Shown here piece by piece: positions 1 through 3,261 of a stretch of DNA of 64,000 nucleotides. The notes under the pieces were generated by a model. That model ran no database searches. It had not been told where the DNA came from and saw only the letters and a program-made list of their open reading frames with translations. Origin of the DNA: Lacticaseibacillus pabuli (GTDB lineage Bacteria > Bacillota > Bacilli > Lactobacillales > Lactobacillaceae); NCBI RefSeq assembly GCF_028736235.1, contig NZ_CP117884.1, forward strand, positions 1,922,001 to 1,986,000, read 5' to 3'. The position numbers and the translations under genes were made by a program. Within the stretch, counting starts at the first letter, position 1. Every line of letters begins with the position of its first letter.

Positions 1-219
1 AACGGCAAGCCAACCAAGTGGAAGGTTGAAAACTCTTGGGGCGACAAGGTCGGCGACAAGGGTTACTTCGTTGCTTCCGATGCCTGGTTTGACGAATACG
101 TCTACCAGATCGTGGTCAACAAGAAGTTCTTGGCACAGGCTGATCAGGACACCATCAAGGCTGAATACGACAAGCCAACCTTGCTTGCACCATGGGATCC
201 AATGGGTGCACTTGCATAA
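1..219 (+). CDS. pepC: Aminopeptidase C, C-terminal part (partial at window start)
   Basis: The frame is open from base 1 to a TAA at 217-219, giving 72 residues. It contains KVENSWGDKVGDKGYF, the Asn-containing active-site segment of C1-family bleomycin-hydrolase-type aminopeptidases (the Asn of ENSWG orients the catalytic His). The tail ends PWDPMGALA, as in lactic PepC. The enzyme is a cytosolic thiol aminopeptidase that releases N-terminal residues from peptides. The catalytic Cys and His lie upstream of the window. A terminator follows directly, so this is the last gene of its transcript. Confidence 0.92.
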   Translation, partial: NGKPTKWKVENSWGDKVGDKGYFVASDAWFDEYVYQIVVNKKFLAQADQDTIKAEYDKPTLLAPWDPMGALA

Positions 220-232
220 CAATGAATACTGG

Positions 233-258
233 AAAGTCACGCTACGGCGTGGCTTTTT
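233..258 (+). terminator. Intrinsic terminator after pepC
   Basis: AAAGTCACGC (233-242) pairs with GCGTGGCTTT (247-256), with one G-U pair, and the stem runs into a T-rich stretch. It separates pepC from the araT leader. Confidence 0.8.
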
Positions 259-335
259 ATTTGTGCATCGGAATATAATATTTATTTTAATGAATATTTA
301 CAACCGTTATTCACCTACTTTTGTGAATTTATCGG

Positions 336-364
336 TTGACAGTCTCTCACTTGAGCATTATGGT
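336..364 (+). promoter_or_regulatory. Promoter of the araT leader transcript
   Basis: A consensus -35 TTGACA (336-341) and TATGGT (359-364) are separated by 17 bp. Transcription should begin near 371, giving a leader of about 240 nt before araT. That is long enough to hold the leader peptide, a hairpin and an attenuator. Confidence 0.8.
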
Positions 365-395
365 AATAGTATCAAATATTCAGGGAGTTCTAATT

Positions 396-449
396 ATGAC
401 AACAAGCACGCACCTTAGTTGCAAATTTTTTAGCTGGTATTTCGGGTAG
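396..449 (+). CDS. Aromatic-rich leader peptide of the araT operon
   Basis: ATG (396-398) lies 8 nt after the Shine-Dalgarno AGGGAG (382-387). It opens a 17-codon frame, MTTSTHLSCKFFSWYFG, ending in TAG at 447-449. Codons 11-16 read Phe-Phe-Ser-Trp-Tyr-Phe, so five of six are aromatic. The next well-initiated gene is an aromatic aminotransferase, and an intrinsic terminator lies in between. This is the layout of a ribosome-mediated attenuator, in which stalling at scarce aromatic aminoacyl-tRNA alters downstream RNA folding. The peptide itself probably has no other function. Translation has not been shown; the call rests on the SD, the residue bias and the context. Confidence 0.75.
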   Translation: MTTSTHLSCKFFSWYFG

Positions 450-486
450 TCATCCGGGAGCCAGTTCTTTGCGGCGCGCGGATGAC
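449..486 (+). promoter_or_regulatory. Leader hairpin overlapping the leader-peptide stop codon
   Basis: GTCATCCG (449-456) is perfectly complementary to CGGATGAC (479-486). The 5' arm begins at the last base of the leader-peptide stop codon, so a ribosome at the aromatic codons or at the stop would mask it. GTCATC can also pair with GATGAC at 560-565, inside the terminator loop. This would be the 1:2-type stem of an attenuator. Confidence 0.6.
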
Positions 487-542
487 GGACAGGCATTCGC
501 GCTGGTGTGAGATTGGTCACGTAATTAGGCTCAATCGTAAAC

Positions 543-587
543 AAACCACCGTGTGCCTCGATGACGAAGCGGACGGTGGTTTTTGTT
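543..587 (+). terminator. Attenuator terminator upstream of araT
   Basis: AAACCACCG (543-551) pairs with CGGTGGTTT (574-582), followed by a T tract, ending about 23 nt before the araT start. A possible competing fold pairs AGGCA (491-495) with TGCCT (554-558), nested around GGTG (504-507) with CACC (547-550). That fold would sequester the 5' arm of the terminator. The antiterminator is inferred from base complementarity only. Confidence 0.72.
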
Positions 588-609
588 GCTCCCCCGAAAG
601 GAAATTATT

Positions 610-1812
610 ATGCCAAATACAAAACAATCATTGCTCAAAGATTTGGATCACTTGTACGACGGACTGGGGGCCAACCCCATCCGAGTGTTTGATGCAGAAG
701 CCAACAAGATTGACGGCGTGGTGAAACTGACGCTCGGGGAACCTGACTTCAACGTTCCTGAACATATCAAGCAGGCTGCTATCGACTCCATCAACAACAA
801 CGAATCGCACTATGGCCCGTCAAACGGTTGGCCCAAGTTGCGCCAGGCTGCGACCCACTTTCTCAAGGATCGTTACGCACTGGACTACGACCCGGACAGC
901 GAACTGGTCGTCACAGTTGGCGCTACCGAGGGCCTGCACGCTTGCCTAGACACGCTGCTGAATCCTGGCGACAAGGTGTTAATGCCAAGTCCGACCTTCT
1001 CACTCTACGATCAGCTCATCCGGATTAACGGTGCCGAGCCCGTGTACATCAACACGGCGGCAACAGACTTTGTCCTGACGCCTGAGCAACTGGAAGCTGC
1101 ACTAGCTCAGGAAGGTCCCCGCGTTAAAGCCATCCTGTTAAACTTCCCATCCAACCCCACTGGTGTAACCTACAGCAAAGCCCAGGTTGAAGCCATCGCG
1201 AAGGTCGTTGCGAAAACTGACATTGCCGTCATCTCGGATGAAATTTACTCCGAACTCACTTACGGCAGCACCCATTACTCATTTGCCAAGGCATTGCCGG
1301 AGCAAACCTTGCTCATTAACGGGGTGTCCAAGTCGCACGCCATGACGGGTTGGCGCATTGGGATTATCGCGGGTCCAGCTGAGCTCATGAAGCGGGTCAT
1401 GCTGGCCCACGCCTTTGATGTCACCGTCGCTTCCAACCCAGCAATGGCCGGAGCCACTGAGGCCTTTGCCACCGAAGCCGGCCGTCAGGACTCCCTCGCG
1501 ATGAAGGCTGAATACATCAAGCGGCGTGATTACGTTGTCGCCGAGATGCGTGACATGGGCTTCACCATTCCGGAACCCACCGGCGCCTTCTACGTCTTCG
1601 CCAAAATTCCCGCCGGCTGCATTCAGGACGACCAGGAATTTTGCTACGACCTGTTGCGCAAGAACAAGTTGGCCGTTATCGCTGGCGGCGGTTTTGGTCC
1701 TGGCGGTGAGGCACACATTCGCGTCAGCTACGCCGCATCCATGGCAACCTTACAAGAGGCCATGAAACGGTTGCGCGCCTACGTTACTGCTAATCAAAGT
1801 ACGCATAAGTAA
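610..1812 (+). CDS. araT: Class I PLP aminotransferase, probably aromatic (AraT)
   Basis: A 400-residue fold-type I aminotransferase. It shows KLTLGEPDF near the N-terminus, NFPSNPTGVTYS around the conserved Asn-Pro, SDEIYSEL (Asp and Tyr at the cofactor) and SKSHAMTGWRIG with the PLP-binding Lys. It resembles lactococcal AraT and also PatA-type enzymes. Aromatic specificity is favoured by the aromatic leader peptide upstream and by the hydroxyacid dehydrogenase downstream. It would interconvert Phe, Tyr or Trp and their 2-oxo acids in the cytosol. The start at 610 follows AAAGGAA; an in-frame TTG at 583 lacks an SD and lies in the terminator. hicD follows after 30 nt. Confidence 0.85.
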   Translation: MPNTKQSLLKDLDHLYDGLGANPIRVFDAEANKIDGVVKLTLGEPDFNVPEHIKQAAIDSINNNESHYGPSNGWPKLRQAATHFLKDRYALDYDPDSELVVTVGATEGLHACLDTLLNPGDKVLMPSPTFSLYDQLIRINGAEPVYINTAATDFVLTPEQLEAALAQEGPRVKAILLNFPSNPTGVTYSKAQVEAIAKVVAKTDIAVISDEIYSELTYGSTHYSFAKALPEQTLLINGVSKSHAMTGWRIGIIAGPAELMKRVMLAHAFDVTVASNPAMAGATEAFATEAGRQDSLAMKAEYIKRRDYVVAEMRDMGFTIPEPTGAFYVFAKIPAGCIQDDQEFCYDLLRKNKLAVIAGGGFGPGGEAHIRVSYAASMATLQEAMKRLRAYVTANQSTHK

Positions 1813-1842: not shown

Positions 1843-2799
1843 ATGACTCGTAAAGTAGCTATTATCGGCGTTGGCCACGTTGGCGCAACCGTCGCACATA
1901 ATTTAATTCTAAATGGTCGCGTTGACGATCTCACCCTCATTGATATCAACGAGGACAAGGTCAAGGCCGATGAACTCGACTTCCGGGACGCCATGGCCAA
2001 TCTGGACTATCACACCAAACTGCACGTCAATGACTACAGCCAACTGAAGGATTGTGAAGTCATCATCTCCGCAATTGGCGACATCGAAATCCAGAAGATT
2101 AAACTCGACCGTTTCGCCGAAGTCGCCTTCACGTCAACGCAGGTCAAGATTGTCGCGCAACAGATTAAGGACTCCGGGTTCAACGGCGTGCTGATTGACA
2201 TCTCCAACCCCTGCGACATCCAAACTATGATTTACCAGAAGATTACGGGCCTACCCGCAACACAAGTCATCGGCACAGGCACCCTGCTCGACTCAGCGCG
2301 GATGCAACGCGCGGTCGGCGAAGCCCTCAACATCGATCCCCGCGGTGTTCACGGATACAACTTGGGCGAACACGGCAACTCACAATTCACCGCCTGGTCC
2401 ACCGTCAACGTGCTCGGTCAGCCCATCGAGGAACTGGCCGCTGACAACGACGACATCGATTTGGACGCCATCGACCACGAAGCACGCATCGGCGGTTACC
2501 ACGTGATGCTGGGTAAGCATTACACCAATTACGCCATTGCGGCCGCAACCACACGGCTCATCAATGCGGTGTTGAGCGATGCTAACTCACAGTTACCCGT
2601 TTCGAACTACCGGCCGGAATTTGATTGCTACCTCTCCTACCCAGCGATTGTCGGGCGCCGCGGTGTGGTGCAGCCAGTCGATTTACCGCTAACTGAGGAA
2701 GAACAGACTAAGTTGGCACAGTCTGCGGCCTTCATCAAAGGACGCTACGACGCCATCATGCGCGGCGATCTCGCGACTGCCAGCGCTTCGTCTAACTAA
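1843..2799 (+). CDS. hicD: L-2-hydroxyisocaproate dehydrogenase
   Basis: 318 residues of the L-lactate/malate dehydrogenase superfamily. It has a Rossmann start VAIIGVGHVGATVAH, ISNPCD in place of the usual SNPVD, the substrate Arg segment DSARMQR, and GEHGNSQF with the catalytic His. The overall sequence follows L-HicDH of Weissella confusa closely. It reduces branched-chain and aromatic 2-oxo acids to L-2-hydroxy acids with NADH. Behind araT it forms a transamination-reduction route to phenyllactate- or 2-hydroxyisocaproate-type products. The SD GGAGG precedes the ATG, and the next gene starts 3 nt after its stop. Confidence 0.9.
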   Translation: MTRKVAIIGVGHVGATVAHNLILNGRVDDLTLIDINEDKVKADELDFRDAMANLDYHTKLHVNDYSQLKDCEVIISAIGDIEIQKIKLDRFAEVAFTSTQVKIVAQQIKDSGFNGVLIDISNPCDIQTMIYQKITGLPATQVIGTGTLLDSARMQRAVGEALNIDPRGVHGYNLGEHGNSQFTAWSTVNVLGQPIEELAADNDDIDLDAIDHEARIGGYHVMLGKHYTNYAIAAATTRLINAVLSDANSQLPVSNYRPEFDCYLSYPAIVGRRGVVQPVDLPLTEEEQTKLAQSAAFIKGRYDAIMRGDLATASASSN

Positions 2800-2802
2800 T
2801 CC

Positions 2803-3261
2803 ATGGCCACTTACACGTTTCGTGAAGTCACCGACCCCGACAGGTCTGCTTACACGAATTTACTTTTAGCGGGCGATAGTGACCCCGCCGTCCTTGGCGA
2901 GTACCAAAATACCGGTGCCCTATTTGAGCTCGTGGATGATCAATGCACGGTTGCCGTTGCGCTGATGATTCCCGTTGATGCCAACACAATTGAACTCAAG
3001 AACATCGCCGTCATTTCCCGCTACCGCAGCCAAGGTGTTGGCCGTGAAATGATGACGCACCTGGTCCAACATTACACCGATCAATATCAGCGGATGATTG
3101 TTGGTACCGCCGATGCTAGTGTCAGCAACCACCTGTTTTACCTCAAGAATGGTTTCCGGTTTTACGGCGTGCGGCGTGATTTCTTTAACCACTACAACCC
3201 CCCGCTCATCGAAAACGGTGTCCGCCTGCGCGACATGGTCATGTTTGAACGCTTTCTATAG
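2803..3261 (+). CDS. GNAT family N-acetyltransferase
   Basis: 152 residues. The acetyl-CoA-binding motif A is seen as IELKNIAVISRYRSQGVGREMM (residues about 66-87, with Q-G-V-G-R), followed by ASVSNHLFYLKNGF, a typical motif B region. The substrate cannot be told. The ATG is only 3 nt after the hicD stop, so the gene is probably translationally coupled to hicD and may act on an intermediate or by-product of the same route. It is the last gene of the operon, before a long hairpin. Confidence 0.8.
   Translation: MATYTFREVTDPDRSAYTNLLLAGDSDPAVLGEYQNTGALFELVDDQCTVAVALMIPVDANTIELKNIAVISRYRSQGVGREMMTHLVQHYTDQYQRMIVGTADASVSNHLFYLKNGFRFYGVRRDFFNHYNPPLIENGVRLRDMVMFERFL

Follow-up and report, generated by a model that had tools for sequence, protein, structure and literature searches.

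How is araT, the first gene of an araT-hicD operon in Lacticaseibacillus pabuli, controlled? Enteric bacteria provide the textbook cases of amino-acid operons attenuated through a leader peptide, whereas Firmicutes mostly rely on T-boxes. A sequence-only reading of the 64,000-nt stretch of DNA analyzed here (the window) had placed an aromatic leader peptide with an attenuator in front of araT. We located the following parts in the window:

336 to 364, plus strand: promoter TTGACA (336-341), 17-nt spacer and TATGGT (359-364), with 10 of 12 consensus matches
381 to 387, plus strand: Shine-Dalgarno (SD)-like CAGGGAG of the leader, from the sequence
396 to 449, plus strand: leader ORF MTTSTHLSCKFFSWYFG, 17 codons, ATG at 396 and stop TAG at 447-449, from the sequence and the genus alignment
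426 to 443, plus strand: aromatic run Phe-Phe-Ser-Trp-Tyr-Phe, the proposed stall sites, overlapping segment 1 of the RNA, from the sequence and the family scan
544 to 585, plus strand: intrinsic terminator 5:6 (544-560 with 565-581) and T-run, from folding, kept in 76 of 80 leader loci

The promoter and the SD-preceded 17-codon frame with its aromatic run are therefore present as had been claimed. The promoter match is weak on its own, because the same scan gave 5 promoter-like sites in 4 kb versus 3.0 expected. The aromatic codons of the leader are Phe at 426 and 429, Trp at 435, Tyr at 438 and Phe at 441. A perfect 8-bp hairpin beginning at the stop codon was confirmed: GTCATCCG/CGGATGAC pairs 449-456 with 479-486, and its first base is the last base of the stop codon. 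The claimed terminator also exists, but the distance from the end of its stem to the araT ATG (610) is 28 nt and not about 23 nt. A simple terminator scan of the plus strand with an allowed loop of 3-8 did not list the terminator at 544-581, probably because the interior of its unbroken outer stem exceeds that loop. The gene upstream of the leader encodes a C1-like peptidase, in agreement with its earlier label 'pepC', and is followed at 241-253 by a short terminator-like hairpin and T-run.

The RNA from 371 to 612 folds at -91.6 kcal/mol (z -5.1). When SD-preceded starts were collected from both window strands for ORFs of 8-36 codons, the araT leader was the only one of 376 with at least four aromatic codons in six. 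The fold, this uniqueness and the conservation in relatives described below indicate that the leader element is not a product of chance.

The enterobacterial his attenuator has six segments, A to F, in which A:B, C:D and the terminator E:F compete with B:C and D:E. Folding predicts that the RNA before araT is likewise a six-segment relay, with 1:2, 3:4 and 5:6 (terminator) opposed to 2:3 and 4:5 (antiterminator). Besides the scheme, the two share read-through upon stalling at a run of regulatory codons; they differ in that his uses His codons before a biosynthetic operon, whereas here aromatic codons precede araT, and the likeness meant here is one of scheme. The hairpins that complete the relay are:

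432 to 466, plus strand: hairpin 1:2 (432-447 with 452-466), spanning aromatic codons and stop, forming without a ribosome, from folding and from pair counts in the window genus and genus g33
449 to 486, plus strand: hairpin 2:3 (449-465 with 471-486), containing the 8 bp 449-456/479-486, predicted upon an aromatic-codon stall, from folding and alignments
476 to 502, plus strand: hairpin 3:4 (476-486 with 493-502), predicted with the ribosome at the stop codon, from folding and alignments
491 to 558, plus strand: antiterminator 4:5 (491-508 with 541-558), 15 pairs in a register shifted relative to relatives, from folding and the g33 and window-genus alignments

The 8-bp hairpin noticed earlier is thus part of the device, but as step 2:3 and not as the antiterminator, which is 491-508/541-558. 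This pattern of alternative pairs holds in the window and in g33, the two cases that were mapped.

Under the proposed mechanism, RNA polymerase would start near 371 and a ribosome would translate the leader, as the SD sequence, the start codon and the conserved frame suggest. When tRNAs are charged, the ribosome would reach the stop codon and cover segment 2, so that 3:4 forms, segment 5 is left free to pair with 6, and the terminator prevents synthesis of araT-hicD mRNA. When an aromatic tRNA is uncharged, the ribosome would stall at the codons in 426-443 and cover segment 1; 2:3 would then form and leave segment 4 available for 5 while 6 has yet to be transcribed, giving the antiterminator and read-through. 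With no ribosome, 1:2, 3:4 and 5:6 would form and transcription would terminate. In folding of the window RNA made up to the terminator 5' arm, with Trp in the A site, the exposed part folded into 2:3 and 4:5. When the A site held the stop codon, 3:4 formed and then the terminator, and without a ribosome 1:2, 3:4 and the terminator formed. The full-length minimum-energy fold keeps the terminator even with a stalled ribosome; therefore, the attenuation model needs a kinetic competition, which we infer.

We then folded 76 loci with the RNA under the ribosome masked and read out the probability that the terminator 5' arm pairs upstream. This probability was 0.68 with the ribosome on a central aromatic codon, falling to 0.47 when it sat at the stop and to 0.44 without a ribosome, and it was 0.50 with the ribosome at codons 5-8 before the run (74 loci). 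The aromatic-minus-stop difference was 0.213, versus 0.014 in the dinucleotide-shuffle null (sd 0.021, maximum 0.051 of 30 sets), and footprints of 10 to 16 nt changed it to 0.15-0.22. By locus, 47 of 76 lay above +0.1 and 4 below -0.1; the window alone gave 0.70, 0.46 and 0.22 for aromatic codon, stop and no ribosome. Little or no effect was found in g55 (0.06), g47 (-0.03), g32 (0.02), g8 (0.04) and g29 (0.08), five genera that still have leaders and mostly terminators. These in silico results indicate that the antiterminator depends on ribosome position and is mutually exclusive with the terminator, with an effect that is weak or absent in those five genera.

The sequence-only reading had proposed an alignment of relatives as a check. 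Eleven orthologous upstream regions of the window genus, with L. songhuajiangensis and L. hulanensis among the named members carrying the element, could be aligned from before the leader through the terminator. Frame, aromatic end, hairpins and terminator are kept and in part covary, and the non-conservation that would speak against the proposal was not found among them. Their leaders have 17-18 codons, show internal indels only in multiples of three and end in FF(S/T)WYFG or variants. In 1:2 and 3:4, 97.3% of 220 cells are paired (shuffles 95.1%, 0 of 500 as high), with compensatory double changes in 3 pairs, a number reached by 18 of 500 shuffles. For 2:3, 95.9% of 121 cells are paired, with 1 doubly changed pair, reached by 168 of 500 shuffles. 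For 4:5, 91.9% of 99 cells are paired, but there is no covariation beyond shuffles. Energies of each 4:5 with its own versus crossed arms favored the own arm in 48 of 70 cases in total. The window genus contributed 14 of 14, whereas g33 reached just 7 of 17, g41 1 of 3 and g37 0 of 2.

A covariance model (R1) was built from the 11 regions and matches them by construction. In a search of 30 genus genomes it gave strong matches only in its 11 source genomes (next best E 0.04), so no new member was added; since each of the 11 has a single strong match, there is one element per genome. The same-genus araT of locus L010 (genome G004), at 74% identity, has no leader upstream by scan, which may reflect loss or replacement of the control region. 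In L011 and L012, about 355 and 250 nt, respectively, are added between terminator and araT, and the L011 insert seems by eye to hold repeated blocks.

Genus g33 has the same relay in an unrelated RNA sequence. In its alignment (A3, from which L074 and L117 were left out as near copies of L073 and L116), 98.9% of 464 cells are paired in the terminating state, where 7 pairs are doubly changed; for the antiterminating state the figures are 96.6% of 208 cells and 3 pairs. Five of 16 rows carry AAG (Lys) in place of the TGG (Trp) codon, and the partners of this codon in both 1:2 and 2:3 differ accordingly (columns 19-20, 46-47 and 62), a compensatory triple; the same rows lack one 2:3 pair (columns 48-61), and the five may go back to a single event.

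To see how far the element extends, we scanned 122 regions upstream of araT-like matches in Lactobacillaceae. This sample is not random: 42 regions came from loci returned by two araT searches (same-order L017-L020, L027, L029 and L030 left out) and 80 were picked roughly by rank from the matches listed in the second, without some matches in between and those further down and with second araT copies per genome included. To count as a leader, an ORF had to be 8-36 codons long, follow an SD and contain four or more F/W/Y within six codons. Such leaders were found in 80 of the 122 regions, 44 of them with six of six, versus 29 of 1220 shuffles and none with six. The 80 come from 79 genomes in 13 genera, so the device is not peculiar to one araT. 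The 42 regions without a leader by scan belong mainly to g35, g33, g43, g3 and g40, and many are in our judgement second araT copies or other clades; at L015 a leader is visible by eye, was missed by the SD filter and is counted as negative. A terminator below -10 kcal/mol lies between leader stop and araT in 76 of the 80 (shuffles 35 of 240). The other loci, L133, L153, L163 and L182, have a leader but no convincing terminator and were excluded from the folding tests; the L133 leader is probably spurious. TTGAC occurs 58-65 nt 5' of the leader start in 68 of 74 nonredundant loci (any TTGAC at 30-90 nt: 70, versus 3.45 in shuffles), and this fixed spacing means that promoter, leader and terminator form one unit.

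A strict DNA pattern for the leader, blind to araT, matched 74 of 397 family genomes in 11 of 40 genera, versus 2 of 397 for the reversed control. It does not match the leader of the window itself, which has Ser within the run, and some family matches are chance: of 20 loci inspected, two (L237 and L238) do not lie at araT. In the order sample it matched 6 of 198 genomes; for order genomes from outside the family the count was 4 of 172, like the reversed control (3 of 172), and by eye these four are starts of other genes. A chance ORF is ruled out by the shuffles of araT-upstream regions, by the pattern search with its reversed control and by the uniqueness among the 376 starts.

The aromatic cores of the 74 nonredundant leaders hold 219 Phe, 108 Tyr and 66 Trp. 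Phe occurs in all 74, Tyr in 70 and all three residues in 61; the originally proposed joint sensing of Phe, Trp and Tyr needs amending for Trp, which is missing from 10 cores and is not essential. The parts, their conservation, the alternative pairings and a codon-resolved folding bias are all observed, and the element is real, conserved and very probably functional. Conservation, covariation and folding bias also support the claimed control by stalling at aromatic codons. We consider it highly likely that this is a classical ribosome-mediated transcription attenuator, which would permit read-through when charged tRNAs for Phe, Tyr or (in most species) Trp become scarce. The response to supply would follow from this reading, and aromatic starvation is predicted to induce AraT and the 2-hydroxyacid dehydrogenase, which is relevant to food strains.

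What would such a switch control? The genes downstream of the leader are:

610 to 1812, plus strand: araT-type class I/II aminotransferase, NCBIfam best match PRK07309, below the equivalog cut-off (509 of 576 bits)
1843 to 2799, plus strand: hicD, L-2-hydroxyisocaproate dehydrogenase-like, second operon gene, best solved relative 1hyh, an L-2-hydroxyisocaproate dehydrogenase
2803 to 3261, plus strand: GNAT acetyltransferase, 3 nt 3' of hicD

Because the aminotransferase scores under the equivalog cut-off, its aromatic specificity is only suggested by family and regulation. The GNAT gene is probably co-transcribed with hicD. As a search query, hicD returned 7 loci only, two of them distant. Among 17 araT loci examined, 15 have a D-2-hydroxyacid dehydrogenase after araT, the exceptions being L222 and the window, whose hicD is of the L type. 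Nine of the 17 loci also encode a PTS_EIIC_2-like protein, which is broken or partial in two of these 9. The order leader, araT, D-2-hydroxyacid dehydrogenase, PTS_EIIC_2 recurs in several genera (L220-L224, L226, L229, L230, L236 and L239), in some incompletely: L222 is without the dehydrogenase and L224 without PTS_EIIC_2. In three g35 genomes (L231, L232 and L233, within the first 430 bases of the sense strand) an aromatic leader, hairpins and a terminator lie directly 5' of PTS_EIIC_2 with araT absent; the in-frame aromatic run of L231 is weaker. Since the same kind of leader directly precedes PTS_EIIC_2 without araT, these findings suggest that the PTS_EIIC_2 family serves aromatic metabolism or transport, and they provide a functional lead for these membrane proteins, whether within the operons or alone under such a leader. 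No such leader was found upstream of the PTS_EIIC_2 gene of the window genome itself.

AraT and a hydroxyacid dehydrogenase are usually read as a catabolic pair, and AraT with 2-hydroxyacid dehydrogenase is associated with phenyllactate, an antifungal and flavor compound. In the window genome, chorismate synthase and a prephenate dehydrogenase domain were matched but prephenate dehydratase (PF00800) was not; a control search found PF00800 in 14 of 14 genomes. The dehydratase is absent from 75 of 79 leader-bearing genomes; it is also absent from 138 of 151 family genomes, so its absence characterizes the family at large and is not tied to the leader. Judged by gene content, genomes without it would be unable to complete Phe synthesis by the known route, and the operon would more likely serve Tyr synthesis or the recovery of amino acids from keto or hydroxy acids. 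Given those 75 genomes, the operon may salvage keto and hydroxy acids. A starvation-induced salvage switch, in which AraT and the hydroxyacid dehydrogenase return phenyllactate and phenylpyruvate (and the Tyr and Trp analogues) to amino acids and, in several genera, PTS_EIIC_2 imports aromatic acids or amino acids, is a tentative idea that we would not yet favor. If it holds, an operon commonly read as a catabolic phenyllactate route runs anabolically, under its own control.

The same 75 of 79 genomes also count for control of the opposite sign, in which a tna-like ribosome arrest at the leader end, caused by the nascent peptide or by free aromatic amino acid, would make excess the inducing signal; this would fit a catabolic AraT-HicD route to phenyllactate. 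However, a peptide-specific arrest should fix residues, and F and Y interchange here while Trp is replaced by Lys or Arg. With the ribosome at the stop codon, moreover, the fold on average favors termination. We therefore regard induction by excess as improbable.

Stalling at most positions within the aromatic run acts alike in the fold model, as would also be expected if the leader were a general sensor of translation speed, in which any slowing, by an antibiotic or cold, leads to read-through and it does not matter that the codons are aromatic. Against this, aromatic identity is kept in 13 genera despite variable codons, and at the operon loci examined the leaders stand 5' of the aminotransferase operon except in three genomes, where the gene that follows encodes a protein found in this operon at other loci; a speed sensor is very unlikely. 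The leader C-terminal core is conserved, which a functional micropeptide followed by ordinary 5' UTR hairpins would explain, but the N-terminal half varies freely, what the RNA conserves is a set of alternative pairings and the ORF is separated from araT by a terminator, leaving this explanation with hardly any credibility.

Attenuation by starvation-dependent stalling has relatives elsewhere. The enterobacterial pheA, pheST and trp leaders likewise have aromatic codons in a short leader and a terminator before the operon, but they are Phe-only or Trp-only and simpler, whereas here Phe, Tyr and usually Trp share one run. According to the report on the S. aureus ilv-leu operon (PMC5794164), its leucine-rich attenuator peptide is supported by mutants and leucine depletion, and attenuation has been predicted for branched-chain genes of Lactococcus and Streptococcus. 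That system is also leader-peptide attenuation in Bacilli, but it has Ile/Leu codons, an antiterminator for which pairing with the poly-U tail is proposed and a biosynthetic operon (PMC5794164). For Firmicutes, His leader peptides are described in Bacillus, Peptostreptococcaceae and relatives, and Erysipelotrichales, while Lactobacillales his genes use T-boxes (PMC2965389, PMC9413887); there too a leader peptide replaces a T-box, but for histidine. The uORFC-13-1 motif before aroF of Acholeplasma (PMC8632094) is a predicted Phe-codon leader (24 sequences) with a terminator in the aromatic pathway; it differs in organism and gene and in having a U-run that encodes one or more Phe instead of a mixed series of aromatic codons. 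An actinobacterial survey reports that Phe and Tyr operons have no conserved RNA structures (PMC1262725), and by term search 'araT' and 'aminotransferase' are absent from the main text of a T-box survey (PMC2494555). The open-licence literature searched yielded no report of an aromatic leader peptide in lactobacilli. The attenuator is thus a known mechanism in a family for which we found no report, with an unusual mixed-aromatic sensor in an unexpected physiological setting.

A T-box or other known riboswitch overlapping the leader has a negligible probability: T-boxes are the usual device in this group and the window genome has 23 T-box (RF00230) matches (L087-L109, 3 over the cut-off), but none lies at araT. 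The claimed absence of a T-box motif was also borne out at window 200-700, where a search with E up to 10 gave nine Rfam matches, no T-box among them, with RsmY the best and all of them short of the gathering score by over 20 bits. Six of these matches fall at least partly within 200-260, a region made up of the upstream gene's end and its terminator; Leu_leader, with 13.1 bits versus 50 needed, lies there, outside the element. At gathering level no Rfam family, and none of the known Rfam amino-acid leaders, matched in the window. By eye of the next ORF, the T-boxes of the genome precede aminoacyl-tRNA synthetase genes, Met genes and transporters. In at least 13 Lactobacillaceae genera a leader peptide appears to do the job at araT, and the window genome keeps T-boxes before apparent pheS, tyrS and trpB genes. 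One further T-box match, L104, precedes what looks like luxS.
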